From the NCBI RefSeq assembly GCF_017948265.1, contig NZ_CP072852.1, positions 310,001 through 374,000 on the forward strand: a DNA stretch of 64,000 bases, given 5' to 3'. This DNA is from Rhodoferax sp. PAMC 29310. Its GTDB lineage: Bacteria > Pseudomonadota > Gammaproteobacteria > Burkholderiales > Burkholderiaceae_C. Of the stretch, positions 3,001 to 20,887 are shown one piece after another. A model generated the notes under the pieces. The model did not search any database. It had not been told where the DNA came from and saw only the letters and a program-made list of their open reading frames with translations. The translations under genes and the position numbers were made by a program. Numbering within the stretch: position 1 is the first letter of the stretch; each line of letters starts with the position of its first letter.

Positions 3001-6000
3001 AGGCCAGCGTTCCGTGTGACGCTGGCAGGCATCAAGTGTTTCCGCATTGGTTGTGGCGAACGTGAACTGACAGCGGTCAGCGGGAAGGCCTCGCAACAGG
3101 CCAGTACAGAAGTTGGGCGGGCCGTTGCTGATTTCCAAAACGTGCAGGCGCTGTCCTTCAGTGAGCTGCGCCAGGCAGGTCTGAGCTGTAGCAGACAAAG
3201 CCTGTGCAGTGTGGCTGCGTTGAGAGACGCCAAAGCTGGTCGCCACCATGGAGGCAAATGTGCAGTCCAGGGGCAGCAATTGGGTGAGGGTGGTTTCCCC
3301 TTGGATCAAGGCCGAGAGGTTCAAGCCAACTCGACTGACTGCGTTGATCGCTGCAAAGTAGTCAGAATGATCAGCGACTAGGGCGTTCCAGATGTCGACA
3401 GATTTAAGAATGTCTGTGGCGTCGCGCAGCTTCCAGCCGGTGTCCACGCGGTCAAGCAGTTGGTCTTCTTCCAATATGGCAATCACACGATGCAGCATGA
3501 CTGACGCTTCGGAACCTTTGTTTAACAGGAGCTCAAGCGGCTGTTCGGATAAGACAAGGTCTTGGTCGGCCAATTGGCGAAAAGCTTCGACTGAAAAACT
3601 CGTGCACAGGGCCGCCAGCAGGGGCTCAACCTCATGCGCATAAACCAGGCTGGATGGATCGCTGTTCAGTGCACGGGTTGCTACCAGCAATTCTTGCTGC
3701 ATGCTGGTCGCGAGGGCATTGGGCACCGGCGTCTCGGCGCAGGGGTGCGCTTTGGGGACTGCTGTGTATGCCAAAAGGCACAAGGGGTCGGTGGTTTTTT
3801 TGCCCATAGGGACGGCGCGAAAACGCACGTCGCGCAACCAGGCAACGACCTCACCCTGGTCATCAAACAGTGTGAAATGAGCGGTGAGGCTGTGCGGAGA
3901 TTGATGCACCAACTGTGCTTTCGCGGTGGCCGGGGCCCCCATGCCAGTGCGCAAACTCAAACGGCCGATTTTGGTGGGTAAATAGGCAACACCTGAGGGC
4001 AGATCAATTTGATCCTGCAGCAAATGGAAAACAAGCTGAAAGCCGCAGTCGAGTAAGGCCGGGTGCAACAACGACTCGGCCATGGAGTCCGAAATAGTGG
4101 CAGGTATTTTGAGTCTGGCCCAAGCGGTGTCTTCCTCTACCCACCCGATGTCAATGGCCTGAAACGCCGGGCCGTAATGAAGGTCAACCTGCTCGGTTAG
4201 GACGGCATGCGATTGGGTATCAAAGTCTGGCCGACGATCTGGTGTTTGCGGCCTTTCATGGGCAAATAAAGTGTCGATTGGCTCGGTGCGTACTCGGCCA
4301 ATGGCGTGCAGAGTCCATGCGTCATGGCTGAACTGGTCACGACTGGAAATGGCAAAGCTGCCGTCGCTGGGCTCCAGGGATACCTTGAGCAGCTTGGTGT
4401 TTTCAGTGCTGAGCACCAAAAACATTTTGATTTCAAGTTCTTCGATTTCAAGTTGAGCCGGTAACCCATTTTGGCCAACCCATTGAGCGGCTGCGGCAAG
4501 ACCCAGTTCGGCGTACCCCGCACCCGGAAAAACGATTGAGCCGCTGACGGCATGGTCAGCCAGCTCTGGATATTTCAACGGGTCAATCTGGTTTTCCCAA
4601 GTCAGCTCCTGCTGCCCCAAGGGATAACCCAGGAGCGGATGTACTTTGCGTCGTTCCAGGAGGTGATAGGACTCGGAGGTGACGGTTTGCCAGTGCCGTT
4701 CGCGTTGCCAAGGGTAGTTTGGCAATGCAGTGAAGCGCGCTGGATGCGGGAAAAAATGTGCGAGATCAGCATCAACTCCAGCCAGTATGGCTTCAGAAGC
4801 AGCCCGCCACACCTGTTCTGACGAGTCATCGCCGCGCTTCAGAGTGGATATGACGCGGCCCGGTTTGCCATCCGTTTTCAGGCATTCATTGAGGTAACCA
4901 CGCAATACGGCATGAGGCCCCACTTCAATGAAAACGTCGATGCCCATTTGTCGAATCGTGCCGATGGCCTTTTCAAAAAGTACCGGTTGGCGAATGTTTT
5001 TCCACCAGTAGCTGGCATCAAGTTGGGTGCCGGGGGTAACTTCACCCGTGACGGTAGAGAAGAAGTCAATCAGCGTTGCTTGCGGTGCCAACGTATCAAG
5101 CGCCTGCTCAAGCCCGGTTTGAATTGGGTCCATCGCCACGCTGTGAAAAGCGTAGTCAAGGTCAAGCCGCTTGAAGATGGCTTGACGATCAAACAGAACA
5201 GATTCCAGTTGGGTCAAAGCCGCTGCCGGCCCTGCCAAGGTGACGCCTCGGCCACTGTTGATGCCAGCAATGGCAATGTGGTCGGCCAGTCCAAGCTCTT
5301 CGAGCACGGTCCGCATTTGCAATTCGCTTAAGGCGACGGCCGTCATTTGCCCCTGACCCTTAGTGAGGCCCTGGAAATGGCTGCGGTAATAAATGACTTT
5401 GACAGCTTGTTCCAGCGTCAAGGCACCAGCCGCCCAAGCTGCAGCAACTTCACCCACACTGTGCCCAGCTACGGCGGCAGGCATCAGGCCTTGGGAACGC
5501 AACATTTCAGTCACACCAACCTGAATCGCAAACAGGGCGGGTTGTGCGATTTCCGTACGCTCGTAACGACCTGCCCCGTTGTCGCCGTTGAGCTCTTTCT
5601 CAAGTGAGAAATCTTCGTATTTCTCAAAAAATCGTTCTACGGCCTGAACTGCTGCCTTGAAAGTAGGGTTTTCGATCAGAAGTTGGCGACCCATGCCTTC
5701 CCACTGCGATCCATTGCCGGAATAAATAAACGCAACTTTGGGTGTCGGGCTCATACCGATAGCGGTAACGACTGGGAGGTTGGTGGGTTTGTCTTCTGAA
5801 AAAGAGGTCAACGCTGAAGCAACTGAGTGCGGTGTGCCTCCAAAAACTACCGCGCGGTGTTCGTGCCACTCACGGTTGATTGCTGCGTTGTAGGCCACGT
5901 CATACAGATCAACAACATCCCCTTTGCCTAAAAGTGCCGCGTACTGTTTGGCGACATCCTTCAACGCAGCTTCTGATTTGCCTGAAATAAACAAAGGAGT

Positions 6001-7329: not shown

Positions 7330-8381
7330 AAGAATCCAACGCTTACATAAACTTACGCCTTCAGGGATTTACATACACGCTGAATTTGGATAACCCGTTC
7401 TCAATAGAAAATATTTTTTATTTCGATCGACCAGATCTCGACGCAAACGGACAACCTGAAATTGTATTGCCTAGGTTCAGCAGCAGCTACCCCCCATTTG
7501 GGGGAGAGGCGAGAATAGAATTCGATATTTTATGTCTGTAAGACAATAATTTCATTGATCGTGAAGGAGCCAAGAGCGACTGCAGCACAACAGGTGCGCT
7601 TGTCTTCACCCCCAACGGAGACCAATGCGTTGGGACCTGCGTCTTTAGTGATGTTGCGCCGAGTGAAGCAGCAAAGCCCACTTGAAAACATTGGATTTTC
7701 TGGCCCCGACTGGAGTCTGAGCATGACGGACCTCATGGGAATGGTGGAGCAGCCTTTTCTTTTGTCGCTAAAAGAGAATACCAACTTGAGTTTCATCTTC
7801 AATGACGTCGTGGACGACTGAAGCCTGAGAAAGCGGGAAACGTTGACGCTCGAAGTCGGCAAATAGTCTGGCAGCCCGTTTCCCTAATCCGGCGCGAAAA
7901 ACCGCGTAGTTGGCTGGCAGCCCCCTTTTTTCACTGAGGCGCAGTTAACTATTCAGCTCACCCCCTTGGGGCAACTGGTGAAGCCTTCTATCTAGTCAAC
8001 TCTCGCGACAATCGTCTTGTTGGGCACCCTGGCGGCCCACGCCTGCGGTCAAACCCCCTGCTTTGAAATCGGAGTGTTTGCAATCAAGCCAGTGAACTCC
8101 TCCCTTGTGTTTTGGCTGCCTGGGTTCAATTTGGCATGTGGCTTCAGAAGAAATACAGCATGCTCTGGTTGATGCAAAGTTATGCCTTTACGGCACAACA
8201 GGCGCAAGGGCTTGTGCCAGAGCTTGGTAGCCCACCCGGGTTCGACAGTTCCAAGCTCAAGATTCACCTGAATTCCAATGAAATCAAGGACTTAGTCGCT
8301 TGATTGGCAAATTACTGTATTGGCGCGATTGTCGTAAAAATATTTAAATTTACGTATAAATCCACTGGTTAAAGTAATGGC
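7330..8381. other. About 1 kb upstream of the PKS with no recognised gene
   Basis: This stretch should carry the PKS promoter, but I see no convincing -35/-10 pair. Two opposed open frames (minus 7530-7862 and plus 7555-7821) overlap each other almost fully, and neither resembles a family I know. The segment 7870-7990 repeats short GGCAGCCC words. Nothing here is supported as a gene. Confidence 0.5.
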
Positions 8382-8525
8382 GTGTTTATAAAACTTACCC
8401 GCTGTGGCCCCAACGAATACGTCCAACTCGTAGTGGTTTACCGCGACGACGCCGGTCGCCCCAAGCAACGCACGCTGGCCTCTCTGTGGCGCGTTGATCG
8501 TAAGCGCGCCATTAACCCCAGGTAG
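8382..8525 (+). pseudogene. N-terminal fragment of an IS1634-like (IS4 superfamily) transposase
   Basis: A 47-codon frame opens at GTG 8382 and reads VFIKLTRCGPNEYVQL, then a YRDDAGRPKQRTLASL motif. In my experience this is the opening of IS1634-type transposases of several hundred residues. It stops at the TAG at 8523-8525, at the very edge of the IS66-family element, and nothing on the far side of that element continues it. It is therefore a truncated remnant of an older insertion sequence. The family assignment is from recalled sequence style. Confidence 0.6.
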
Positions 8526-10236
8526 TCAAGGCAATGGAATCGGCGATATTTCTGGTAGGCGCAGGTTCCACGGCAGAAGCGCTTCAACTTCTTCGACCGT
8601 CTGTGCAGCTGGCAATTCACGTAGCACCCGGCGCAGCCAGGCATAGGGCTCCACACCATTTGCCTTGGCCGTTTCCACCAAGGAATAGATGACGGCGCTG
8701 GCGTGCGCACCAGCGCTTGTGTCGCTGAATAGCCAGGCTTTTCTTCCCACCACGAAGGGACGGATGCTGTTCTCGCAACGGTTGTTGTCAATCGGCAGAT
8801 CGGCGCGCTCGGTGTACCGCGAGAGCATGGGCCACAGGTTTTTCATATACGCCAGAGCGGTGCCCAGAGCACTCTTGGGCGTGACCAATGGCACGGTTTT
8901 GGTCATCCATGCATGTATCTCTGCGAGTGTCGCCACGCTCTGGTCCTGCCGCGCCGCATGGCGCACCTCTGGTTTGGCGTCTTTGAACTCCCGCTCAATA
9001 CGGTACAGCCTGCCAATAAGCGCAACCGCCTCATCAGCCTTGCCGCGTTTGCCCTTGGGCTGCACCCGCACGGCCTCCACAAAGCGTCTGCGCACATGTG
9101 CCCAGCAGGCCAAACGCTCAATTCCGGCGGTGCACCCGATGTCACCGTAGCCCGCGTACCCATCGGTCATCAAATAACCTTTGAATCCCTCCAGCACCCG
9201 CGTGGGCACCGTGGCGCTGCGACTTGGATCGTAGTCAAACAGAACCACCGGTTTGTCCGGCGGCCCGCCCGATTGCACCCACATGTAGCTGTTGGAGGTG
9301 GGCGCCTTGGCGCTCTCTTTGAGCACCTGCACCACCGTCTCATCCATATGGATCAGGGAGCAGTCGAGCAGGATGTCGCGCATCAGGTTGTGCAACGGCT
9401 GCAGCAATTTGCCACCGCCAATAACCCAGCGCGCCAGGGTCTGACTGGGTACCGGCGCATTGTGGCGCTCAAGCACACGGCCAAAGCGCGTAAGCGGCAT
9501 GCCATCGACAAACTTGACCGTGTACAGCATGGCCAAGAAGTCCGCACTGGCATTGCTCTTGGGCAGAGGCTGCGCTGGCAAGGGCGCCGTAACGGGCGCG
9601 TGCTGGCTGCCGGGGCAACCATAGCGGTTGCGGATGTTGCGAATCACGCGCACCTGCATGGGCACGATGTCGAGTTGCTCGCTGATGTCCTGGCCGATTA
9701 ACACCATAGGGGAGCCACAAGGGCAAGTGCGATCAGATTCAGGCACATCGTGCACGACATCCATCCGTGGCAGACCTGCAGCCAATGGGGCGCGTTTGCC
9801 GCGTGCGGGCTTAGAGGCTGCCTTGGTGGCGTCGGCAGCGCCAGATGCATCCTGGGTTTCTTCGGCGGCAATGGGGGCCGTATCGTGTGCGTCTGTGCTG
9901 GTTTGGGCGAGCACTTCGGCTTCGTCAAACAAGCGGCTCTGGGCGGACATCTGTTCGGAGCTTGCGCCGAACATGCGTTGGCGAGCCAGTGTGGCCTGCT
10001 CGAGCATGCGGATGATGTAAGCGTGGGCCTCGTCGCGAACGGCCTGCATTTCTGCGCGCATTGTTTGCGCTTCTTGATGCAGAGTTTGTACGACCTTTTG
10101 CTGTGTCACCAGGAGCGCTTGGAGGGCTCCAATATCGTCTGGCAAAACGCTTGGAAAACTGAACGTTTTAGCAGCCTCTTCAGACACCTTCTCCAGAGAT
10201 GAAATAGGTGTTTTAAGGGCATCATGTCAACTACCT
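8520..10236 (-). mobile_element. IS66-family element carrying only tnpC, putative limits
   Basis: The element contains a full-length TnpC but no tnpA or tnpB upstream, as in the TnpC-only (ISBst12-like) branch of IS66. Suggested tips are AGGTAGT at 8520 and its complement ACTACCT ending at 10236. Identity between the two ends falls off quickly after these bases. I find no 8-bp target duplication, so the limits are tentative. The left end abuts a broken IS1634-like fragment. Confidence 0.5.
8526..10187 (-). CDS. tnpC: IS66 family transposase TnpC
   Basis: This 553-residue protein has the length and order of IS66 TnpC. An N-terminal coiled region (about 20-75) rich in Gln and Glu is followed by the RQRMFGASSEQ motif. 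A Cys-containing zinc-finger-like segment about 160-190 reads CPCGSPM and YGCPG. The DDE catalytic core shows IHMDET (Asp about 282), MTDGYAGY (Asp about 342) and RCENSIRPF (Glu about 471). The C-terminal IS66 tail ends with LLPWNL. No frameshift or stop interrupts it, so the enzyme may be active. The partner proteins TnpA and TnpB, which most IS66 members carry upstream, are absent within several hundred bases. The stop codon lies inside the terminal sequence of the element. Confidence 0.9.
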   Translation of the reverse strand: MSEEAAKTFSFPSVLPDDIGALQALLVTQQKVVQTLHQEAQTMRAEMQAVRDEAHAYIIRMLEQATLARQRMFGASSEQMSAQSRLFDEAEVLAQTSTDAHDTAPIAAEETQDASGAADATKAASKPARGKRAPLAAGLPRMDVVHDVPESDRTCPCGSPMVLIGQDISEQLDIVPMQVRVIRNIRNRYGCPGSQHAPVTAPLPAQPLPKSNASADFLAMLYTVKFVDGMPLTRFGRVLERHNAPVPSQTLARWVIGGGKLLQPLHNLMRDILLDCSLIHMDETVVQVLKESAKAPTSNSYMWVQSGGPPDKPVVLFDYDPSRSATVPTRVLEGFKGYLMTDGYAGYGDIGCTAGIERLACWAHVRRRFVEAVRVQPKGKRGKADEAVALIGRLYRIEREFKDAKPEVRHAARQDQSVATLAEIHAWMTKTVPLVTPKSALGTALAYMKNLWPMLSRYTERADLPIDNNRCENSIRPFVVGRKAWLFSDTSAGAHASAVIYSLVETAKANGVEPYAWLRRVLRELPAAQTVEEVEALLPWNLRLPEISPIPLP

Positions 10237-10644
10237 GCGATACGGACCAATATGAAAATCCTGAAATATGGTTTTTAGCAACATTTTTTTTGCTGTGTGT
10301 GATAACCTGATTTTGTTGGATGTTGGGGTGGAGAAGCCGTCACGCATGGGCGAAACTGTCTTCCTCAACATGTCGCCCATCACGAAGATTGAAGTGACTG
10401 CTTCGCGATAGTGTTCCTTTGTTGGAACGCACCTGGTTAGTTTTTTAGATGTGGGTGAGGTCTTTACGTGCCACAACACCAGGTCAGGATTCTGTAATAT
10501 GGGCCTAAACCCTGCTCCTATTTCCCTTTTGGGTAGAAGAGCTGTCACGACTCACCTCGAAGAAGCCACTCAGTTTTCGGATCGGGTGGTTTTCTTCGTT
10601 TTTAGCCCGCTTGTTTAAAACATCAAATTTCGGCAGGTAGTTGA
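10227..10644. repeat. 418-bp segment bounded by a perfect 12-bp inverted repeat
   Basis: TCAACTACCTGC at 10227-10238 and its exact complement GCAGGTAGTTGA at 10633-10644 bound this segment. The first copy overlaps the right tip of the IS66-family element, and the second matches the first eight bases of that element's left tip (CAGGTAGT). The interior holds one weak minus-strand frame (10231-10548) without recognisable similarity and a hairpin with ATGGGCGA/TCGCCCAT arms at 10346-10380. It may be a non-autonomous relative or a leftover end of a second copy. The repeat is certain, its meaning is not. Confidence 0.5.
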
Positions 10645-10693
10645 AAGCCAAGCTCGGGCCGCTGGTGTGCACTCGGTCACACAACATTTTTTA

Positions 10694-10716
10694 GAGCTGG
10701 TCTATCTGACTAGCTC
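10694..10716. repeat. 23-bp palindrome, copy 1 (upstream of the AAA+ gene)
   Basis: The pattern is GAGCTGGTC, a five-base spacer TATCT, then GACTAGCTC, with one mismatch between arms. It lies 146 bp before the start codon of the AAA+ ATPase. Two close copies lie at 13125 and 13295, after the decayed second ATPase copy. Confidence 0.75.
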
Positions 10717-10862
10717 AAAAGCCCACCTTTTTTTGAAGGATCTCGGTAAACTCCCATCTCAAATTTTTATTTTCTTGGTGGCCCGTGAGTTGCCACTTTT
10801 TTCCAAAGCGCGACGCGCATGCACTGGGCATGGGTGCGCCGTTTTGGTCAAAAGGATAGAAA

Positions 10863-12134
10863 ATGGAACTCGAATTCGAAAGCCTGCCCGACTGGCTGTT
10901 GGTCAAAACATCACACTCAGTGCCCACCTACTGGGTGGACGTCATTAACGATTTCTTGCAGGTTATCGCCTCCATGTTTGTTGTGCGGGGACGAGAAACT
11001 GTACTCGTGCACATGTACAACAGGGGAGATCGGCTCTTGTTCGAGGTGGACTATCCCAGCCACTTCTGCGCAAAGAAATCGGCCGTTGATGTGATTCGCC
11101 AAGTTTTTAGCCAAATGTCGATTCATGCACATGCATGTCTAGGCATGAGCGACGACATCGGTCAAAAAGTGCGTGTTTTTAAGGTGGCGACAGGCCAGGG
11201 CGCAAACGTAGCGCGGCACCCAGAAACAGCAGAGCGAATCAAAGCAACCGTTGAAAAAATCAAGCAGACCGGCGAATTCAGGCCACTGAAAGCGCCGCCC
11301 AGGGATTGGGTCAGAAAGTTGGAAATGCTGCGGGAGTCGTTTCCAAATTTCGCGAGTGTGATCGATCTGGTTGTCGCGCCGCACATGGGAATCCTGGCAA
11401 AGGGTGGCTACCACCGCCAATCGCCCATGCTGCTGGTGGGCCCGCCCGGAATAGGCAAGACCCATTTTGCAAACGCGCTGGCTTCGACCATGGGGCTGCA
11501 TGGCGCGCTTTTCATCAACATTGCAGAAGAAACTAACGCTGCCAGCTTGGGTGGCAGTTCGGTTTTCTGGGCCAATTCAGCGCCGGGCAAACTTTTCGAA
11601 CTGCTGGCCTGGGGGGATGGGGGCAATTCGCCTGTGGCAAATCCTCTGGTGATCCTCGATGAGCTTGATAAGCCAACGGCCACGCAGTACAACCCAGTTG
11701 CATCGTTGTACACACTGCTCGAAGGCGATACTGCCAGTCGCTTCGTGGATCAGGGTGTCCCGGATGTGGTCCTTGACGCCAGCAGCGTGCGGTTTGTGGC
11801 AACCGCCAACGATGCATCCCTGATCCCCGAGCCCCTCCTGGGACGCATGGTGGTTTTTCACATCGCCCATCCAACAGCCGAGCAGTTGCGCGGCGTTGTG
11901 CGCGCGATTTATGCGGACTTGATTGATCGCACCCGGCTGCCGCTCAAGCGTGAGCTGCCTGATGTGTTGATTGACGCAGCCAAGGGACTCAATCCTCGCG
12001 AAGCCAAGATGCGCATGGAATGCGCCATTGCAAAGGCGGTGTCAGCAGGCCGTGACTGTGTGCGGCTTTCTGACTGGCCGGACTTCCCAACGGCTGCAAG
12101 TCACGGGCGTCGAAGTATCGGCTTTACCGGCTAG
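10863..12134 (+). CDS. Solo Lon-like AAA+ ATPase with an unrecognised N-terminal domain
   Basis: This 423-residue protein starts at ATG 10863 behind an AAAGGA ribosome site. Residues 1 to about 150 match no domain I know. Residues about 165-390 form an AAA+ module: Walker A GPPGIGKT at 193-200, Walker B LVILDELD with Asp/Glu at 266-267, sensor 1 in VRFVATAND, and GRM as a probable arginine finger. The stretch RFVDQGVPDVVLDASSVRF closely follows the Lon pattern ahead of sensor 1, yet there is no Lon peptidase domain. It ends in SDWPDFPTAASHGRR-SIGF. The substrate is unknown. It could act as a remodeller in an anti-phage or mobile-element function, but nothing here proves this. The decayed tail of a paralogue lies 0.75 kb downstream, and the same palindrome family flanks both. 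Confidence 0.85.
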   Translation: MELEFESLPDWLLVKTSHSVPTYWVDVINDFLQVIASMFVVRGRETVLVHMYNRGDRLLFEVDYPSHFCAKKSAVDVIRQVFSQMSIHAHACLGMSDDIGQKVRVFKVATGQGANVARHPETAERIKATVEKIKQTGEFRPLKAPPRDWVRKLEMLRESFPNFASVIDLVVAPHMGILAKGGYHRQSPMLLVGPPGIGKTHFANALASTMGLHGALFINIAEETNAASLGGSSVFWANSAPGKLFELLAWGDGGNSPVANPLVILDELDKPTATQYNPVASLYTLLEGDTASRFVDQGVPDVVLDASSVRFVATANDASLIPEPLLGRMVVFHIAHPTAEQLRGVVRAIYADLIDRTRLPLKRELPDVLIDAAKGLNPREAKMRMECAIAKAVSAGRDCVRLSDWPDFPTAASHGRRSIGFTG

Positions 12135-12879
12135 GTCCGTTGCCCTCGTCGTGGCGTAGTCTGATCGCATTCCTGTGCCCCCTCAATCTGTCTACTACTT
12201 GCTCGGGCAGAACGTTGATGCATTAGTAAAAGAGGCTCCAGCAACGATTTACGCTGGATGGACGCCATGGCGTGAAATCTGGCGCCCCCCAGCGTGTCAT
12301 CTGGCGCTCTGGCGTGACTTATCGACACCAGTTGGGGATCTAAACCAGATGCGGCCTTTTTGCGTAGTGCGTTTATTTTTGTGAAGCATAAACGCCTCGG
12401 CACCTCTCCAATAACATGGGTATGGTGGTTGCTTGTTGCAAATCACTTGGCGCAAGAATGCATCAAATAGTCTGGCACACACGACCCGGAAAAAAAACGG
12501 GTCGCCAATCCCGGCTTCGTTATTACAAGGCCCTCAATCTCTTCAGGATGGCGGCAGTAGTTTTGAGCCTTGACGAGATCGCGCGCGAGATCAGCGATTT
12601 CGTGCGTGGTGGAGATCGAAACGCCGCCACTTTGTGCATCAGCCCACAAAGTGGAGTTCAACCCTGATCCGTGCACACGGCAATCAACTCTTCGGCGAGT
12701 GCATCGTGATCGATCTTGGAGTCCGCAGGGATCAGTGACCTAAAAAAATTTACCGAGATGCATGGGTGTGCTTGTCGGACAGGCGGGGTTGGTGTCTTGG
12801 CTGAGTTTTGGGTTGTTGGGTTGTTTTGGGGTGGTGTTCGCTTTTGACATGGTTTGGGGGGGGCCTTTGGTGTACCGTG
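12135..12879. other. 745 bp without a confident gene, several hairpins
   Basis: I see no complete gene here. A CGACCCG/CGGGTCG hairpin sits at 12482-12504 and a CCACTTTGTG/CACAAAGTGG hairpin at 12627-12654. On the minus strand, 12740-12658 reads as a plausible protein tail (SLIPADSKIDHDALAEELIA, ending VCTDQG and a stop), but it has no start and no recognised relatives. From 12763 to 12860 the plus strand is strongly enriched in G and T. It looks like a graveyard of inserted fragments. Confidence 0.5.
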
Positions 12880-13040
12880 GACGGCTCTGGCGAGCGAGCC
12901 CGAAAACTGTGCAATGTCGATGTACGGTCACTCAGCAGGTTTCTGAGCTGTGCGATGCGGGGTCGGGGAAGGTCTCGGGCTGGCCAGAAATTCCGACGGC
13001 TGCCTCTCATCAGCGCCGCGGGATTGGGTTCATGGCGTAA
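12880..13040 (+). pseudogene. Decayed C-terminal tail of a second Lon-like AAA+ ATPase
   Basis: The frame ending at 13040 finishes with GWPEIPTAASHQRRGIGF plus two residues. This matches the tail of the upstream ATPase (DWPDFPTAASHGRRSIGF) at 14 of 18 positions. Nucleotide resemblance continues leftward through a CTCAGCAGG block to about 12880, but only across frame changes. No Walker motifs or start precede it. It is the divergent remnant of a paralogue, not a recent duplicate, because the two copies differ at many silent and non-silent positions. Confidence 0.7.
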
Positions 13041-13061
13041 GCTAAGCAAGATCGATTAGCG

Positions 13062-13096
13062 GAAACACCAAATTGTGAAAGACATTTTGGTGTTTC
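13062..13096 (+). terminator. Hairpin after the decayed ATPase copy
   Basis: GAAACACCAAAT at 13062-13073 pairs with ATTTTGGTGTTTC at 13084-13096 with a single bulge. It begins 22 bp after the stop of the remnant. There is no clean U-run after it, so a terminator role is only likely. Confidence 0.4.
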
Positions 13097-13124
13097 AAGC
13101 GAACAAGCGTGTTTAAAAAATTTC

Positions 13125-13147
13125 GAGCTGGTCTGTCTGACCAGCTG
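13125..13147. repeat. 23-bp palindrome, copy 2
   Basis: GAGCTGGTC, spacer TGTCT, then GACCAGCTG. The arms are perfect except for the outermost base. It lies 85 bp after the stop of the decayed ATPase copy and 170 bp before copy 3. Confidence 0.75.
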
Positions 13148-13291
13148 TCAGTTTCACGCTGGCGCAGTCATCGGCTGCGGGTATGCATGGGACCGTGTGA
13201 CTGCTTGAAACGGCAGCGTGTAAGGGGTTTTAAGCGGCTTCGTGATGGCATGATGCACGATGTCGACAATCCTCCGCTCGCGAAAACTCAG

Positions 13292-13320
13292 TTTGAGCTG
13301 GTCTGGCTGACCAGCTCAAA
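13292..13320. repeat. 23-bp palindrome, copy 3, extended to perfect 12-bp arms
   Basis: TTTGAGCTGGTC, spacer TGGCT, then GACCAGCTCAAA. All 12 base pairs match, so this is the most symmetrical of the three copies. A second small inverted repeat, GCACA and TGTGC around an AT-rich loop, follows at about 13374-13393. The IS21 element begins 158 bp further on. Confidence 0.8.
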
Positions 13321-13663
13321 ATTGCGGTTTTTCCAATCCTTCCTGGACTGGGGTGTGACTAACAATTGATCTCGCACAGTAATAATTGTGCGCGCACAAC
13401 TGGTTTAGGGAAATCAATGACTTACGAACGCTGTATCGGTTTTTCGTCTGCTGATTCGCACAAAAATAACGCGCACGTGGGTATTCCAGACCATCGTGAC
13501 CGGTCATTCCGGTCGAACGTGACCGATTTCAGGGTTTGACCGGAATGACCGGTCACGCCACCGCAATCGTCGGTCACGAGGCCGCAATCAGATACCGCAG
13601 CGTGTGATGTTGCGCATATTTCCATAAACCTCGGGTGGCCTCTTCGGCTTTGCTGGAGTGGGC

Positions 13664-15190
13664 ATGCCCGATACCCGAAGGATCAATATGCGCAAGATAC
13701 GGGACGTCCTACGTCTCAAACTTGAATCCCGACTCTCCCATGAGCGAATCGCCGCCGCCCTGAGCCTGTCCAAGGGAGTGGTCAGCAAGTACGTCAGTTT
13801 GGCAAGCGCCGCTGGCCTGGATTGGGCCCAAGTTCAAGCCCTGGATGACACGGCACTGCACAAGTGCCTGCTGGGCACGCCTCAGCGCACCAGTGCTTTT
13901 GTGGTGCCCGACTATGCCCGCATCCATCAAGAGTTGCGCCGCAAAGGCATGACCTTGATGCTGCTGTGGGAAGAGCACGCGGCCCGGCACCCCGGTGAAT
14001 CCACCCACCGCTACGCCCAGTTCTGCGTCAACTACCGCAGCTACGCCAAGACCCTCAAGCGCTCCATGCGCCAGGTTCACCGGGCTGGCGAGAAGCTGTT
14101 CATCGACTACGCCGGCCCCACAGTCGCGCTCAGCGACGCCAGCCGCGCCCACATCTTTGTCGCTGCCCTGGGCGCGTCGAGCTACACCTTCGCCTGCGCT
14201 ACACCCCGCGAGACGATGGCCGACTGGCTGGGTGCGACGGCCCAGGCGCTGTGCTTCTTTGGCGGTGTGCCCCAGCTCATCGTGCCTGACAACCCCAAAG
14301 CCTTGATAGCCAATGCTGATCGGTATGAACCACGAGCCAACGAGACGGTGCACGACTTTGCGCGCCACTACGGCACCTCGTTCCTGCCCGCACGGCCCTA
14401 CCACCCGCAAGACAAAGGCAAGGTCGAGTCCGCCGTGCAGGTGGTGGAGCGCTGGATTCTGATGCGATTGCGCCACCAGCGGTTTGCCACGGTCGATGAC
14501 GTCAACGAGGCCATCGCACCGCTCTTGGAACAGCTAAATGCCAAGGCGTTTCAGAAGCTGCTCGGCAGCCGCGCCAGTGCGTTTGCACAACTTGACGCCC
14601 CGGCCCTGCAACCGCTGCCCCTACAAACCTGGGAGTTGGCCGTCTACAAGACCGTGCGAGTTCACATTGACCAGCACGTTGAGTTCGAGGGCCACCGTTA
14701 CAGCGTGCCGCAGTCACTGGTTGGGCAAGTGCTGGAGGCCCGCGTGACGGCGCGCACGGTGGAGTTGCTGCACCGGGGCCAGCGCGTGGCGTCTCACCTG
14801 CGCTGTGCGCACAAGGGTGGATTTACCACCGTGCCTGAACACCTGTCGGCTGCCCACCGGGCTCACCTGCAGTGGACGCCTGAGCGACTCATCCACTGGG
14901 GCAACAGCATTGGCGTGGCCACTGGTGCCTTGGTGACGCGCTTGCTGGAAACACGACGTCACCCCGAGCATGGCTACCGGGCCTGTCTGGGCTTGTTGGC
15001 ATTGGCCAAGCGCTTTACCAAGCCACGACTGGAGGCCGCCTGTGTGGTGGCGCTGGAATTGGGCACCACCAACAGCACCCACGTGCGTGACATTCTGGTC
15101 AATGGGCGTGATCAGGTGCAGGCCAGCACTACGCCAGAGTGGACCAGCCCGCAGCATGCCCATGTGCGTGGCGCGGGCTATTACCAATGA
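13664..15190 (+). CDS. istA: IS21 family transposase IstA
   Basis: IstA catalyses strand transfer of the element. I chose ATG 13664, which has GGAG a few bases upstream; a GTG at 13658 is an alternative. The protein has an N-terminal helix-turn-helix (about 10-60, including SHERIAAALSLSKGVVSKYV) and the rve-type catalytic core with FIDYAG (Asp about 148), VPDNPK (Asp about 208) and KGKVESAV (Glu about 255). A basic C-terminal Mu-like domain follows. Its length of about 508 residues is normal for the family. The gap to the istB frame is short, so the two are translated together. Confidence 0.95.
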   Translation: MPDTRRINMRKIRDVLRLKLESRLSHERIAAALSLSKGVVSKYVSLASAAGLDWAQVQALDDTALHKCLLGTPQRTSAFVVPDYARIHQELRRKGMTLMLLWEEHAARHPGESTHRYAQFCVNYRSYAKTLKRSMRQVHRAGEKLFIDYAGPTVALSDASRAHIFVAALGASSYTFACATPRETMADWLGATAQALCFFGGVPQLIVPDNPKALIANADRYEPRANETVHDFARHYGTSFLPARPYHPQDKGKVESAVQVVERWILMRLRHQRFATVDDVNEAIAPLLEQLNAKAFQKLLGSRASAFAQLDAPALQPLPLQTWELAVYKTVRVHIDQHVEFEGHRYSVPQSLVGQVLEARVTARTVELLHRGQRVASHLRCAHKGGFTTVPEHLSAAHRAHLQWTPERLIHWGNSIGVATGALVTRLLETRRHPEHGYRACLGLLALAKRFTKPRLEAACVVALELGTTNSTHVRDILVNGRDQVQASTTPEWTSPQHAHVRGAGYYQ

Positions 15191-15244
15191 CCCATGACAC
15201 CCAGCATCTCGCTCACAACCACCTACCCGACAACAGGCATTCCC

Positions 15245-16009
15245 ATGAGGATGAACACCACGATTGAACAACTCCGCGGCCTGCGCCTGACTGGCATGGC
15301 CACCGGTTTGCAGGAACAGCTCACCCAGGCCGGGATGACGGGAATCAGCTTTGAGGAGCGCCTCGTACTGTTGGTGGACCGCGAAGTCCACTGGCGCAAC
15401 GATAAACGCCAGACTCGACTACTCAAGGATGCCAAGTTGAAGCACCGCCAGGCCAGCATTGAGGATCTGGATACCCACGCCGGGCGGGGACAGGAGCGCA
15501 AGGCTGTCATGAGTCTGGCATTGGGTGACTGGATTGAGAGCGGTCACAGTGTGCTGATCACTGGCCCCACTGGGGCGGGCAAGTCCTGGCTGGCCTGCGC
15601 ATTGGCGCAGTACGCCTGCCGCCGGGGGCACTCTGCGTATTACCAACGGGTGCCCCGATTGGGTGAAGAACTGCGCATCCGCCACGGCAACGGCACGTTT
15701 GGCAAGTGGCTGCTTCAAATGGCCAAGACGGATGTGCTGCTGCTGGAGGATTGGGGAATGGCCGGGATTGACAGCCAGACTCGCGCTGACTTGCTGGAGA
15801 TCATTGATGAGCGGGCAGCCAACAAAGCCACCATCATCACCAGCCAATTACCGATTGAGCATTGGCATGCCTGGGTGGGCGACGCCACGATTGCTGACGC
15901 TATTCTGGACCGAGTGATGCAACGAAATCACCGTTTCACCCTCACGGGCGAGTCTCTTCGTCAGAAGCCAAAAGCAAGCAAAAAGGAGGTCAATCCAGAC
16001 CCATCGTGA
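15245..16009 (+). CDS. istB: IS21 family helper ATPase IstB
   Basis: IstB is the AAA+ helper that selects target DNA and stimulates IstA. The protein has 254 residues from ATG 15245 (MRMNTTIEQLRGLRL). Walker A is GPTGAGKS at about 107-114, Walker B is DVLLLEDWG, and the sensor region reads TIITSQLPIEHWH, all typical of the IstB/DnaC-like group. The gene is intact and sits 54 bp after istA. The last 90 bases before the element tip carry the right-end repeats. Confidence 0.95.
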   Translation: MRMNTTIEQLRGLRLTGMATGLQEQLTQAGMTGISFEERLVLLVDREVHWRNDKRQTRLLKDAKLKHRQASIEDLDTHAGRGQERKAVMSLALGDWIESGHSVLITGPTGAGKSWLACALAQYACRRGHSAYYQRVPRLGEELRIRHGNGTFGKWLLQMAKTDVLLLEDWGMAGIDSQTRADLLEIIDERAANKATIITSQLPIEHWHAWVGDATIADAILDRVMQRNHRFTLTGESLRQKPKASKKEVNPDPS

Positions 16010-16416
16010 CCGACACCCCTACAATTTAGATGCGCAATACCGCACGCTGCGCCACCGGTCACGATCGACCGGAATCAGCGGTCACGATCGCCGGAATACG
16101 CACGCACGACTTTTATGCAGAGCATGTGTCGAAAGAGGGTTTTTAGCGGCTTTGCGGTGCGCCTAAACCCGGCAACCCACTGGGTGAATCGCTGAGGAAC
16201 ATCCCAAGGGAACACTACTTACGTCCCGCGCCACTCCTACAGAAGCAAAAGACTTCAAAGACCTCTTTTGCATCGCGGCTGATTGAATCAAATTTTCTAA
16301 TCACATCGCCTGCGGTATTCTGTTTACTAAAGTACCCTTTCATCCTTTTCCGAGGTGTTCCTGCCGTTAACGGACGAGCCCCTCGAATCTCGTGTTCACA
16401 ATGACGTCTTGAAACC

Positions 16417-16617
16417 GTGAAGTTCTTACTTTTTGCCATTGCGATTGCCACTTCTTTAGTGATTCTGAAATTCTGGGCGCCCAACAACTGGGCGTCGCTC
16501 GAGATCATGGTTGGCGCTGGGCTCGTTCTAATCGTGGCAACGGCGGTTGCCATCGTCGCGTCGCGAAATCGACAGCGAAGACGACTGACTGATATGCGAG
16601 ATTCTGCGCTTTGGTGA
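16417..16617 (+). CDS. Small two-helix membrane protein, hypothetical
   Basis: A 66-residue frame starts at GTG 16417. It has two clear hydrophobic helices, about 2-20 (FLLFAIAIATSLVILKFW) and about 28-48 (LEIMVGAGLVLIVATAVAIV), followed by a basic tail (SRNRQRRRL) that would stay in the cytoplasm. No family is recognised. The flanking 16109-16416 and 16618-16930 hold no other gene I can support. Composition supports a real membrane peptide, but the weak ribosome site and isolation leave doubt. Confidence 0.4.
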   Translation: MKFLLFAIAIATSLVILKFWAPNNWASLEIMVGAGLVLIVATAVAIVASRNRQRRRLTDMRDSALW

Positions 16618-16930
16618 CTGCGTATGGCTCTTGACGACCAACAGCGGGTGCTCACGGGTGTCAGCTTCCGGGCAATGAAAAGATCTTTACCGTTGAGGTT
16701 CTATAAAGCTGCCGCTCAATCGGCGGCATCTCGTCCGCATTGCTGACGCTGGCGACGGAATAGTCTGGGACAGGACTGCAGCGGCTGCTGTCGGCCGCCA
16801 ACGCCAGCTTCCGGGTCAGCCAATTTCATCGATTTGGAGGCTGGTCAACCGCCGTTCAAAGGCCTCGGCAAGGTGCCCCAGCTGACATTGATGCCACACG
16901 GAACCGGCCACGAAAACCTATCTTTCTTAA
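16618..16930. other. Non-coding stretch before the toxin-antitoxin pair
   Basis: I see no gene or RNA here. Several short GC-rich words recur (GCCGCCAACGCCAGC, GCTGCTGTCGGCC), which suggests remnants of older coding DNA, but no reading frame is kept. Confidence 0.4.
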
Positions 16931-16933
16931 TGT

Positions 16934-16956
16934 GAATTGCAATTGCAATACAATTC
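16934..16956 (+). promoter_or_regulatory. Palindromic operator ahead of the antitoxin gene
   Basis: GAATTG and CAATTC enclose a perfect inner palindrome TTGCAATTGCAA (16937-16948). It ends four bases before the antitoxin ATG, so a bound protein would block initiation. Autoregulation by the antitoxin or the toxin-antitoxin complex is the likely use, by analogy with ParDE-type operons. Confidence 0.55.
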
Positions 16957-16960
16957 AATA

Positions 16961-17239
16961 ATGAAAACTGCAACCATACCCCCGATCCGCGTCGCGCCTG
17001 AGTTTAGGATCGAAGTTGAGGACGTCCTTGAGCAAGGTGAAACGCTTTCAGAATTCGTCGAAAACGCCGTACGTCAAACAGTTTTGAAGCGCAAGCATCA
17101 AGCTGAATTCCTGCGTCGGGGCATCACTGCAATCGAGGAAACAAAGCGAACAGGCGGAGGCATTGCTGCGGAGGTCGTGGTTGCCAAGCTTGAAGCCAAG
17201 CTGGCGGCTGCACGTCGAACCCAGTCTCAGCACAGTTGA
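16961..17239 (+). CDS. Antitoxin, YlcI/YnfO-like
   Basis: This 92-residue protein starts at ATG 16961 (MKTATIPPIRVAPEFR). An upstream TTG frame start would lie inside the operator and is unlikely. The opening beta-strand-like segment followed by LSEFVENAVRQTVLKRKHQ resembles ribbon-helix-helix antitoxins such as the YlcI/YnfO group. The C-terminal half is helical and charged (AKLEAKLAAARR) and would wrap the toxin. Its TGA overlaps the toxin ATG by one base, the tight coupling usual for type II pairs. It should neutralise the downstream ParE-like toxin. Confidence 0.75.
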   Translation: MKTATIPPIRVAPEFRIEVEDVLEQGETLSEFVENAVRQTVLKRKHQAEFLRRGITAIEETKRTGGGIAAEVVVAKLEAKLAAARRTQSQHS

Positions 17240-17556
17240 TGATTTATACCGTTCAATTCAGTGCTGCTGCCGACGAAGACTTGGAGAGGCTTTTTGATTT
17301 CATTCTCCAACGTGAACTGGAAAGTGCAACTGGTGATCTTGACATTCCCGAGAGAGCGCTAAAGGCCATCAAAGAGGGCATAGGCCTTTTGCGGTCATCT
17401 CCATTTGCCTGTCGCAAGGTTGGGGAAAATCCTTTCATCCGAGAACTCGTGATCACTTTTGGACGCTCAGGCTATGTGGCTCTTTATGAAATAGTTGATG
17501 ACAGCACCGTCATCATTGGTGCAATCCGTCACCAACGGGAAGATGATTACCACTGA
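17239..17556 (+). CDS. ParE/RelE superfamily toxin
   Basis: This 105-residue protein starts at ATG 17239 (MIYTVQFSAAADEDLERL). The pattern is that of ParE/RelE toxins: an N-terminal strand, two helices through ALKAIKEGIGLLRSSPFACRK, then strands ending VALYEIVDDSTVIIGAIRHQRE, with the I-x-AIRH-x-RE motif common in ParE. ParE members inhibit gyrase and RelE members cut mRNA. The sequence favours the ParE side, but the target cannot be fixed from sequence. It is translationally coupled to the antitoxin. Confidence 0.8.
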   Translation: MIYTVQFSAAADEDLERLFDFILQRELESATGDLDIPERALKAIKEGIGLLRSSPFACRKVGENPFIRELVITFGRSGYVALYEIVDDSTVIIGAIRHQREDDYH

Positions 17557-17959
17557 GTCAACAAATTGTTGGTGCGGTGGCTCCCAATCCCCGCCACTGG
17601 TCAATCGTGGATGTGGCTGCCATCGAAATCAACGCCACATAGCTGACCTTCAAAGGTGACATGAACAGCCGGTTTGGATGAGTCATTTCGGCAAGTTGGC
17701 TGACCGGAAGGGGCACCAAACAGCCGCACAACGGTCAGGCAGCCATCACAGCCACGACTGGGGTTTCGAAATCGCCTGCCGCGCTTCACTTCAGACAAGG
17801 GTGCCGAGTTCCTGCTCTTCTTACCAAGTTACCCCCACGACCTGTGGTCTAAGCTGTTGATAAGTCATTGAACAACTGCCCGATGTGCCGCCAGTGCTGG
17901 GCTAGCGGGTTGCGCCTAAAAAGAAGGCAGTGGGTGATGACACGGGGTGGGATACTATG
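17557..17959. other. About 400 bp without a recognised gene
   Basis: Neither strand has a gene I can support. A minus-strand 65-codon frame at 17601-17798 is possible but is Cys- and Arg-rich and resembles nothing known to me. The base composition is like that of the neighbouring accessory DNA. Confidence 0.4.
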
Positions 17960-17975
17960 CTGTATAAAAAAACAG
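17960..17975 (+). promoter_or_regulatory. LexA (SOS) box of umuD
   Basis: CTGTATAAAAAAACAG fits the CTGT-N8-ACAG SOS box with the usual AT-rich centre. It ends four bases before the umuD start codon, so LexA would repress this gene until DNA damage. Confidence 0.85.
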
Positions 17976-17979
17976 TCAT

Positions 17980-18462
17980 ATGTCGCACGCCATCCTAGAC
18001 CTCAACACGCCTGTCCCAATTTCCCAGGCCCCACTCTGGGTAAATGCACTGCCATGCCGGATCACGGCTGGCTTTCCCTCGCCTGCCGAGGACCATGTCG
18101 TGCAGCGGGTTGACTTGATGGCGCAGTTGATGCGCCATCCTCAGGCCACCTACTTGCTCCGAGTGCGCGGTGAATCCATGATTGAGGCGGGCATCTTTGA
18201 CAACGATGTGGTGATGGTGGACCGTGCCATCACGCCGCGCTCCGGGCAGGTGGTGGTGGCCGTGGTCGATGGCGACTTTGTGTGCAAGACCCTGTACCAG
18301 CGCGGCGGGCGCATCAAACTCAAGGCCGCCAACCCCACCTTTGCCGACATCACTCCCAAAGATGGCCAGACGCTGGAAAGGGCTCAGTTTTCGGTCGGCG
18401 GCAACAAGCCAACTCATGATCTCGGTTATTGGATTGGATTCCTGGGGCAAGTGCGTCGATGA
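17980..18462 (+). pseudogene. umuD: umuD-like translesion polymerase subunit with a replaced C-terminus; umuC missing
   Basis: UmuD is an S24-type autoprotease that, after RecA-stimulated self-cleavage, joins UmuC as DNA polymerase V. The first 133 residues are a good UmuD: cleavage site AG at 30-31 (ITAGFPSPAED), nucleophile Ser66 in RGESMIEAG and general base Lys103 in DGDFVCKTL. After KDGQTLE the expected last strand (V-WG-VV-T) is replaced by 27 unrelated residues, ending at 18462. No umuC follows; the next recognisable feature is a tRNA scar at 18606. A deletion or rearrangement at about 18379 probably removed the end of umuD and all of umuC. The remaining protein might still self-cleave. 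Confidence 0.8.
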
Positions 18463-18605
18463 TCTTTTGCCAGAGCACAAAGTGTTTTTCAAATTGGTGT
18501 GACATTTGGGGCAGTACAATGGGGCAGTTGGTGGGATTCAAGGGTGTTTACGGGGGTCTATAGCTTGAAGAAATTCAGTAAAAGCTTAAGATAGCCTGAT
18601 TATAT

Positions 18606-18633
18606 ATTGGTTCGAGTCCAATCGCGCCTACCA
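18606..18633 (+). other. 3' fragment of tRNA-Val(GAC): probable attachment-site scar of a genomic island
   Basis: These 28 nt form a complete T-arm (ATTGG, loop TTCGAGT, CCAAT), the acceptor 3' strand CGCGCCT, discriminator A and an encoded CCA. The matching 5' acceptor strand AGGCGCG and the D- and anticodon arms are absent upstream. The end sequence matches my recollection of betaproteobacterial tRNA-Val(GAC). A tRNA 3' end alone is the usual product of integrase-mediated insertion, with the intact tRNA restored at the other junction. It separates accessory DNA on the left from core genes on the right. Confidence 0.75.
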
Positions 18634-18689
18634 GTATTTCTATCTGAGGTTAACCAGACTCAGGTGTTTTAAGAAATGCTGACAAATTG

Positions 18690-18726
18690 AAATCCGAATC
18701 AGGCTTGAATCCTATTCGGATTTTTT
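18690..18726 (+). terminator. Rho-independent terminator behind the tRNA scar
   Basis: AAATCCGAAT at 18690-18699 pairs with ATTCGGATTT at 18714-18723, within a run of seven T. It would have ended the original tRNA transcript. Confidence 0.75.
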
Positions 18727-18915: not shown

Positions 18916-19449
18916 ATGCAAAACAAAAAAAGCACCACTGGCGTGACCGATCAACGGGTCATCAAAAAGTATCCAAATCGCCGTCTGTACGATACCGATA
19001 CATCGAGCTACATCACTTTGTCTGAGGTCAAGCAACTGGTGATGGACAGTGAACCGTTCGTTGTTCTTGACGCAAAGACCTCTGAAGACCTGACGCGCAG
19101 CATACTGCTGCAGATCATTTTGGAGGAGGAGTCCAATGAGTCCCCGATGTTTACCGCGCCGGTTTTGGCCAGTGTGATTCGGTTCTATGGCAATGCCATG
19201 CAGGGACTCATGGGCGGGTATTTGGAAAATAATATCCAGTCTCTATTGGATGTTCAAAGCAAGTTTTCAGAGCAATCAAAAAACTTGTCGCCTGAGATGT
19301 GGGCGAAATTCGTGGCGATGCAGTCACCTGCTCTGCAGGCCATGATGGGGGGCAATCTGGATCAATCCAAAAATATGCTGCAACAAATGCAAGATCAAAT
19401 GCAAAAGCAGACCGATCAAATGCTGGACGCATTTGGTATCAAGCGGTAG
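18916..19449 (+). CDS. phaR: Polyhydroxyalkanoate synthesis repressor PhaR
   Basis: PhaR senses PHB granules and represses phasin genes and itself when no polymer is present. The 177-residue protein starts at ATG 18916 behind CAGGAG. The N-terminal PHB accumulation DNA-binding domain spans about 15-75 and includes the diagnostic [19 protein letters not shown] and [17 protein letters not shown]. Two PHB-accumulation regulatory repeats follow (about 80-130). The tail is Gln- and Met-rich ([19 protein letters not shown]), as in the family. It is followed by rimO 40 bp later on the same strand. Its presence implies that the cell makes PHB, although no pha synthesis gene is in this window. Confidence 0.95.
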
Positions 19450-19489
19450 TTGGATTGACCGTCAAATCCGTGGGCATGTGAGTGAAGCA

Positions 19490-20887
19490 ATGAGTACAAA
19501 TATCAATACAAGCGTCAAAAATTCGCCCAAAGTGGGTTTCGTCAGTTTGGGCTGCGCCAAAGCGCTAACGGACTCCGAGTTAATTCTGACCCAGCTCAAT
19601 GCGGAAGGCTATCAAACCTCCAAAACCTTCCAGGGCGCTGACCTTGTGATTGTGAACACATGCGGATTCATTGACGATGCAGTCAAGGAAAGCTTGGACA
19701 CAATTGGGGAAGCCCTTGCAGAAAACGGCAAGGTGATCGTGACCGGATGCTTGGGCGCCAAGTCAGCGGAAGGCGGTGGCAACTTGGTTCGCAAAATGCA
19801 CCCGAGCGTGTTGGCCGTAACAGGCCCGCAGGCGACGCAGGAGGTGATGGACGCCGTCCATGCCAATTTGCCGAAGCCACATGACCCGTTCATTGATCTG
19901 GTACCGAATACCTTCGGTGTGGCGGGCATCAAATTGACGCCAAGGCATTACGCTTACGTCAAAATTAGCGAAGGGTGCAATCATCGTTGCACTTTTTGCA
20001 TCATCCCTTCGATGCGAGGTGATTTGGTCTCCCGGCCGATTGGCGATGTGCTTCAAGAGGCGAAGGCCTTGTTTGAGGGCGGCGTCAAGGAGTTGCTGGT
20101 CATTAGTCAAGATACATCCGCCTATGGCGTTGACATCAAGTACAGAACTGGTTTCTGGGAAGGCAAGCCGATCAAGACGCGTATGCTGGACTTGGTGAAA
20201 GCACTTGGCGAGATTGCTGAGGGCTACGGTGCTTGGGTTCGCTTGCACTATGTTTATCCTTATCCCAGTGTGGATGAGGTGATTCCCTTGATGGCGACGG
20301 GCAAAGTGTTGCCCTATTTGGATGTGCCGCTCCAGCATAGCCATCCAGATGTATTGAAGCGCATGAAGCGCCCGGCAAGTGGCGAAAGAAACCTGGAGAG
20401 AATTCAAAAATGGAGAGAGGTATGTCCGGAAATTGTGGTCCGAAGCACGTTCATTGCTGGATTCCCGGGCGAGACTGAGGAAGAGTTTTCACATCTGCTT
20501 GATTTCATGAAAGAGGCCAAAATTGACAGAGCTGGCTGTTTCGCATATAGCCCCGTTGATGGCGCCACGGCCAACGACCTTCCCGGCATGCTGCCAATCG
20601 AGGTTAGGGAAGAACGACGAGCGCGTTTTATGGCAGTGGCTGAAGCCGTGTCCGCGGCCAAATTGCACCAGCGCATTGGTGCGACGATGCAAATATTGGT
20701 TGATTCCGCGCCGGGGATGGGTAAAAAAGGCGGCGTTGGCAGGTCTTATGCCGATGCGCCCGAGATTGACGGCGTCGTTCGATTGTTGCCGCCAGAAAAG
20801 ATCAGCAAGACCTTGAAGGTGGGAGAGTTCACAAAAGCCCGTATCGTTGGAGCGCAAGGACACGATCTGGTTGCTCAGCCGTTCTAG
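19490..20887 (+). CDS. rimO: Ribosomal protein S12 methylthiotransferase RimO
   Basis: RimO adds a methylthio group to Asp of ribosomal protein S12 using radical SAM chemistry. I place the start at ATG 19490 ([20 protein letters not shown]), giving 465 residues; an upstream GTG-type extension into phaR is unlikely. The N-terminal MTTase domain has its three cluster cysteines in [19 protein letters not shown] and VTGCLGAK. The radical SAM motif is CNHRCTFC at about residue 160. A C-terminal TRAM domain holds the final 70 residues or so. All cysteines are kept and the length is normal. Confidence 0.97.

Follow-up and report, generated by a model that had tools for sequence, protein, structure and literature searches.

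The stretch of DNA considered here, called the window throughout, comprises the 64,000 nucleotides from positions 310,001 to 374,000 of contig NZ_CP072852.1 of Rhodoferax sp. PAMC 29310, and its features are collected in Table 1. The window opens inside a large polyketide synthase (PKS) gene, to the right of which there follow, in this order, an IS66 element, a gene for an AAA ATPase, an IS21 element, a ParE toxin-antitoxin pair, and a UmuD-like gene. No umuC was called adjoining the UmuD-like ORF, and the last 32 residues of its product lie outside the S24 match; the ORF may be a remnant. A short piece of a tRNA gene comes next, and beyond it are phaR and a gene which we take to be rimO. A first reading of this DNA made from the letters alone (the sequence-only reading) had put the meeting point of accessory DNA and core genes at this piece, and the Pfam matches agree, with accessory genes on its left and phaR on its right.

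Table 1. Features of the window at the right end of the island and in its right flank (window coordinates).
Feature	Position	Strand	Basis
Right third of the 59.35-kb island (whole island: contig positions 269283-328633)	1..18633	.	27-mer copies and ORF content
Start-proximal part of a 2543-aa capsule-type PKS (KS-AT-DH-ER-KR-ACP), stop left of the window	1..7329	-	Pfam domains; DPQQR and HGTGT motifs
IS66-family transposase	8526..10187	-	PF03050
AAA ATPase, 423 aa	10863..12134	+	PF00004, phrog_15585; 36% identity to an ORF of viral contig L315 matching the same phrog
IstA-type transposase, IS21-family element	13658..15190	+	PF00665/PF22483 and adjacent istB
IstB, IS21-family element	15194..16009	+	PF01695
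Candidate antitoxin ORF upstream of ParE	16937..17239	+	4-nt overlap with the ParE ORF; no Pfam match
ParE-type toxin of a toxin-antitoxin pair	17236..17556	+	PF05016
UmuD-like S24 peptidase ORF, 160 aa	17980..18462	+	PF00717, phrog_811, NF007621
Candidate arm-type site pair, GGGGCAGT...GGGGCAGT	18508..18528	+	86 and 99 nt inside attR; matching pair at the tRNA end
attR core, 27-nt copy of the tRNA-Val(GAC) 3' end	18607..18633	+	Two exact genome copies; point at which the flank matches to relatives change over
T-run hairpin, probably the original tRNA-Val terminator, now displaced	18689..18724	+	Fold -14.1 kcal/mol, z -3.9
phaR, core gene, right flank	18916..19449	+	PF07879/PF05233
rimO (presumed), core gene, right flank	19433..20887	+	86-93% identity of the best match, 6 of 6 relatives queried

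The piece at 18607-18633 consists of the T-arm, the acceptor strand and the CCA end of a tRNA. There is no tRNA body upstream, and neither ARAGORN nor Rfam (at its gathering scores) calls a tRNA there, so that its description as a free-standing fragment stands. Its length had been given as 28 nt, from 18606 to 18633; the exact match to an intact tRNA is 27 nt, as base 18606 is an A where the intact tRNA has a G. None of 100 dinucleotide shuffles of the window produced a match to it within three mismatches. In the whole 4,593,249-bp genome there are just two copies of the 27-mer when up to two mismatches are allowed, both exact and on the same strand, with no third. The left copy, at contig positions 269256-269282, is the end of an intact tRNA-Val(GAC) (269206-269282), whose anticodon arm occurs a single time in the genome within three mismatches. 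The right copy, at 328607-328633 and thus 59,351 bp to the right of the tRNA copy, is the scar.

The sequence-only reading had proposed to look left of the window for an intact tRNA-Val(GAC) with the same end and with an integrase gene beside it, and both were found, the shared end being 27 nt. It had also named an intact tRNA with unrelated flanks elsewhere in the genome as an outcome that would speak against it; here the tRNA keeps the left neighbours that it has in relatives, namely a presumed SDR gene followed by a presumed ggt or dnaG. The PKS gene does lie inside the element so bounded, as had been claimed, and it does so as part of a capsule cluster, while the size of the element, put at 18.6 kb or more at first, is corrected to 59.35 kb. 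Base composition does not mark the island, its G+C content being 53.4% against 54.7% and 54.0% in the flanks.

Of the two fates that had been suggested for the integrase, left of the window or lost, the first turned out to be the right one, with a full-length gene about 40 kb left of the window. It is the first large gene inside the tRNA end, 430 bp in, and reads towards the tRNA; a 125-aa ORF lying between the two is outside the 40 called ORFs of the island and outside the library scans. The product, of 396 aa, is a tyrosine recombinase with an arm-binding domain (PF12167) and PF00589. Residues R223, K259, Y326, R329, H352 and Y361 do not vary among the 20 sequences aligned, the query included, and we take them to be the active-site positions of tyrosine recombinases, with Y326 in place of the usual H. 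Tyrosine-recombinase insertion at a tRNA 3' end, the central proposal of the sequence-only reading, is upheld by this integrase together with the intact tRNA and the empty sites discussed below.

Relatives of the integrase with at least 40% identity were located at 28 genome loci, 24 of which are at tRNA-Val(GAC) and two at tRNA-Pro(GGG), the other two being without a tRNA within 1.5 kb. The closer relatives found for this tRNA-Val(GAC) family come mainly from Burkholderiales and related betaproteobacteria. Within the genus there is no other full-length match above 30% identity, and shorter integrase pieces with 41-48% identity are present in G072, G074 and G069. Six of the eight genomes with integrase relatives that were checked carry the tRNA end twice on the same strand of one contig, at spacings of 38.2, 45.2, 48.5, 51.3, 56.9 and 62.0 kb; in G487 the two copies are on separate contigs, and G491 has just one. 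Roseateles terrae (L106), Roseateles violae (L087) and Noviherbaspirillum aridicola (L098) are like the island in the integrase family (44-53% identity to the island integrase), the tRNA-Val(GAC) site and the orientation of the integrase, and each has two same-strand core copies, 48.5-56.9 kb apart, with repeat pairs at both ends. Relatives of the polA and DUF3854 genes of the island were not found in the DNA examined around these three. The element of Roseateles terrae seems to be present again in the IMG/VR contig L169.

The repeat pairs are the second feature that the two ends of the island share. Six occurrences of the 8-mer GGGGCAGT were counted on the two strands of the island, and four of them form one same-strand pair at each end, the members of a pair being 12-13 nt apart. 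The pairs lie 70 and 82 nt inside the tRNA end (attL) and 99 and 86 nt inside the scar end (attR). When eight pairs of element ends were compared, our own included, seven had a repeat pair inside both ends; by eye, its members are spaced by about 12-13 nt, and its distance inwards is about 35-95 nt from the tRNA end and 75-130 nt from the scar. The words used are TGGGGCAG-, TGGGGAAG- or GTGGGAAG-like, with a variant on the scar side of G487, and in the eighth element, that of G489, the two ends have no common repeat word of at least seven letters. The pattern GGGGCAG-N3-7-GGGGCAG is found in our own 114-kb region at the two element ends only. A search of loci L008 onward (8.26 Mb, both strands) returned ten matches, of which nine are at ends of elements of the integrase family, one of these being our own and three ends being present twice, and one is elsewhere. 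Judging by their sequence and placement, we regard the GGGGCAGT pairs as candidate arm-type sites that the integrase may bind. Such paired repeats offer a predictive sign for both ends of elements of this kind in other genomes.

The state of the site before insertion can be seen in relatives. The 27-mer was surveyed in 89 genomes of the genus, 13 of which are without it within two mismatches; single copies at contig ends in G068, G077 and G079 were left out of the locus comparison. The 82 rows compared, which include our own locus and some loci twice, divide into 41 empty sites, 18 with other DNA to the right of the tRNA, two with an insert of known size, five with a scar before phaR, five in which the flank is too short, six with an intact tRNA in another context, four scar-like copies elsewhere, and one diverged tRNA body. 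An intact tRNA-Val with phaR within 300 bp is present in 41 of the 88 relatives, among them G031, whose PhaR is 90% identical; relatives in which the tRNA directly precedes phaR had been predicted from the sequence alone. In blastn comparisons with three of the empty sites (L031, L026 and L020), the left-flank alignment runs to the very end of the 27-mer and the right-flank alignment starts with its first base, an overlap of exactly 27 nt. In an oriented comparison of all 41 sites, the right flank aligns from the first base of the core in 40, and from the second in L017. The left-flank alignment, lost to a diagonal filter in 19, is kept in 22 and ends there 0-5 bases past the core; five of the 41 are exact on both sides. 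In many of these sites the right alignment is barely longer than the core, and the right flank is therefore recognised there by phaR rather than by its DNA. In G031 the sequence that follows the intact tRNA is homologous to the hairpin right of our scar, so that this hairpin, which was missed by a terminator scan with a loop limit of 8, is probably the native terminator. Directly 3' of our intact tRNA-Val is a hairpin with a T-run, with a folding energy of -21.0 kcal/mol (z -6.1).

One outcome named beforehand as a difficulty for the proposal, namely relatives that lack the PKS and yet have only the fragment before phaR, was encountered in part. G008, G033, G038 and G064 have no full-length PKS match and carry the fragment before phaR without a tRNA body. 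We do not take the scar to be ancestral on this account, because the PhaR proteins of these four are 69-74% identical and 41 relatives keep the intact tRNA. At locus L083 of G033, 6.2 kb separate a tRNA-Val from a scar with one mismatch, both ahead of phaR; this looks like a small, independent occupied site.

It was also considered whether the fragment could be what remains of a tRNA duplication or a chromosomal rearrangement, and not an attachment scar at all. The locus may indeed rearrange as well, as 16 relatives have other DNA to the right of tRNA-Val, in which several ORFs resemble ordinary chromosomal genes by eye and none matches the profile of the island integrase. The integrase at the other copy of the 27-mer, the matching repeat pairs at both ends, and the exact 27-nt overlap with the empty sites all argue against a rearrangement, which we strongly disfavour as extremely improbable. 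The profile was applied at 17 loci, these 16 and L035, to the longest ORFs with 130 aa or more, no more than four per locus; one ORF of L054 (G055) looks by eye like an integrase of another type. We abandoned an earlier idea, by which about 30% of the genus would have an island hotspot in the gap between tRNA-Val and phaR, in view of the ordinary-looking genes and the lack of an integrase-profile match in the 17 loci.

We consider it highly probable (at about 0.86) that the scar is the attR of a 59.35-kb tRNA-Val(GAC) element, probably a prophage without detectable particle genes, which carries a capsule cluster. Prophages and islands that sit at tRNA 3' ends through tyrosine recombinases form a well-known class, and their mechanism of integration is textbook knowledge. 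In the present case, a recombinase of the PF12167 plus PF00589 type would have inserted the element at the 3' end of tRNA-Val(GAC). At the junction on the integrase side (attL), an identical stretch of 27 nt and an element-borne terminator hairpin would have made the tRNA whole again, and the old tRNA 3' end and the old terminator would have been left beside phaR (attR). The integrase would bind the paired direct repeats (GGGGCAGT twice) some 70-100 nt inside both ends. The element was probably once a prophage. On the left side of the cargo it still has the integrase together with a PolA-like polymerase and a primase/helicase-like DUF3854 protein, and on the right side an AAA ATPase of phage type. 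Both the prophage ancestry of the whole element and this order of events are what we infer.

The genes to the left of the window are those for the integrase, orf120, a PolA-like protein (PF00476), orf134, and a DUF3854 protein that resembles phage primases. Upstream of the DUF3854 gene are two 53-bp direct repeats (contig positions 277317-277369 and 277413-277465), 90.6% identical, which are candidate replication iterons. The order DUF3854-polA-orf120-int recurs in the IMG/VR contig L315 (IMGVR_UViG_3300020045_009058), a contig that also encodes a terminase and a protein related to the AAA ATPase, and the order DUF3854-polA-int recurs in L316 (IMGVR_UViG_3300029397_000034), which has terminase, portal and head genes. 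In L315 the orf120 relative has 39% identity and that of the AAA ATPase 36%, the latter gene being in the opposite orientation relative to int from that in the island. These viral contigs differ from the island in their terminase genes, and L316 also in its portal and head genes, and their proteins are only 25-39% identical to those of the island. Closer relatives of the DUF3854 protein (76%, 78% and 48%) belong to clusters whose longest contigs measure 7,720, 43,115 and 12,684 bases, the very lengths given for the clusters of three integrase relatives (74%, 59% and 63%), so the two genes are probably on the same contigs. Relatives of polA, DUF3854 and orf120 were not found in the DNA examined around the integrase relatives L087-L244. 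The DUF3854 protein has no full-length match elsewhere in the genus, and distant matches occur in 18 other genomes among the 399 of the family sample.

It is worth pointing out that the element has the phage-type integration and replication genes of a temperate tailed prophage and, as far as scanned, not its particle genes. No terminase, portal, capsid or tail match was seen among 37 of the 40 called island ORFs with Pfam or among nine ORFs with PHROGs, and the prophage origin therefore rests on distant relatives (25-39% identity). The same 37 ORFs, which leave out two small ORFs and a polysaccharide-export ORF scanned with NCBIfam, gave no relaxase or type IV secretion match that would place the element among the integrative conjugative elements. 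The missing particle genes also fit a prophage satellite or an integrative plasmid-like element that never had any, as opposed to a gutted prophage. The 53-bp repeats, if they are iterons, would suit such an element, as would the partial DUF3854 relatives in nine plasmid records, seven of them plasmids of 7.9-11.6 kb. Against this, the viral contigs L315 and L316 pair the same module with terminase or portal genes, and six other elements of the integrase family span 38-62 kb, a usual size for prophages. We consider such an origin unlikely, and a prophage remains our preferred reading of the chassis.

Most of the element is filled, together with the IS elements that follow, by a 39-kb capsule-type cluster that runs from a GNAT gene to the PKS (278.1-317.3 kb). 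It encodes, besides these, sulfatase-like, SDR and KpsS-like (PF05159) proteins, glycosyltransferases, an inositol-phosphatase family (CysQ-like) protein, TauE, CysNC-like and CysD proteins, an RgpF-like protein, an ABC exporter, KpsE-like proteins and an oxoamine synthase-like enzyme; several further ORFs have no assigned family. The genes for capsule biosynthesis and ABC export beside the PKS match PF05159, ABC-2 and an ATPase, and the models for the KpsE family and for KpsS match below the NCBIfam cut-offs. According to passages of one study, wcb/rkp clusters combine a type I PKS (wcbR/rkpA) with genes for capsule biosynthesis and export (PMC3908369). The island cluster is similar to those described there, wcb in Burkholderia and rkp in Rhizobium and Nitrosomonas, in having a single-module type I PKS, with the DPQQR and HGTGT motifs, among capsule and ABC export genes, and differs from them in its position inside a tRNA-bounded island and in its CysD/CysNC sulfate-activation genes. 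By its gene content, it is a putative WcbR/RkpA-like capsule cluster with a presumed function in capsule formation. The PKS homologue search gave mostly long actinomycete synthases among the 120 matches listed. Full-length PKS matches above 70% identity are limited to four of the 89 genomes, namely our own, G083, G039 and G049, with one at 42% in G072.

The location of the cluster in G083 deserves attention. There, tRNA-Val and phaR are adjacent, the capsule cluster starts to the right of phaR, and its GNAT end abuts rimO on another contig; the two contigs probably join, which would place the cluster between phaR and rimO. Between rimO and the GNAT gene of G083 are pieces 82-88% identical to a 570-aa large serine recombinase (PF00239, PF07508) adjoining rimO in G072, whose phaR side has a relaxase and a coupling protein. 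In both genomes the recombinase reads out of the phaR/rimO junction, as an open frame in G072 (L299, 10346-12058) and as pieces in G083 (L297, 9472-9944). This junction resembles a second site of integration beside tRNA-Val, and related capsule cargo has apparently reached neighbouring addresses by different recombinases. A tblastn search for a remnant of the large serine recombinase beside our own capsule cluster, as in G083, found none.

These observations raise the possibility of a nested island, in which a phage-like element with the integrase and replication genes occupied tRNA-Val, and IS elements or homologous recombination brought in the capsule cluster at a later time or independently; the PKS would then not have come with the tRNA insertion. 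The homologous cluster of G083, with the same end genes (GNAT and PKS), appears to sit between phaR and rimO, beside serine-recombinase pieces and not at tRNA-Val; G039 and G049 have related clusters though their own tRNA-Val/phaR site is empty; and IS66 and IS21 genes stand between our PKS and the scar. Set against this, the genome holds only two copies of the 27-mer within two mismatches, and nothing in them directly shows the order. We rate nesting a little below an even chance; it is compatible with the tRNA-Val prophage that we favour and differs from it only in timing.

A bolder idea is that the island is a still-mobile vehicle for capsule swapping, a phage-derived chassis that excises, replicates with its own polymerase and primase, and is packaged by a helper phage. 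The occurrence of the cluster 3' of tRNA-Val here and, beside serine-recombinase pieces, in the phaR/rimO gap of a relative would then mean that unrelated recombinases have brought one capsule type more than once to one chromosomal address. We think this quite improbable. If it were true, a whole capsule locus would be moved, and with it the surface that phages meet on the host would be changed.

While the mechanism and the kind of element are already known, two things are new here, a chassis probably derived from a phage that carries capsule genes, and the pairs of repeats found at both ends within the family. Among open-licence literature we found nothing on topic, by title and start of abstract, for tRNA-Val islands in Comamonadaceae or for prophage remnants with capsule clusters, and nothing at all on capsule islands with tRNA-Val or on arm-type sites in prophages at tRNA-Val. 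The chassis, the repeats and the second address of the capsule cargo are the parts that merit following up. A whole capsule locus is tied to a probably phage-derived element, and for a tRNA-Val(GAC) integrase family there is now a full anatomy that can be tested, made up of attL and attR, the empty site, the integrase, the candidate arm sites and the replacement terminator.

Two smaller observations concern the capsule cluster itself. Upstream of the PKS is a palindrome-like sequence, TCCCC(C)AAA(A)TGGGG(G) (contig positions 317490-317505, window 7490-7505), a possible regulator site; it is found upstream of the PKS in three genomes (our own, L278 from 2103 and L280 from 561), with no other occurrence in our own 114-kb region. 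At contig positions 297283-301282, a segment with the RgpF-like and unknown ORFs has 33% G+C against 53% for the island, and is perhaps a later insertion of variable glycan genes.
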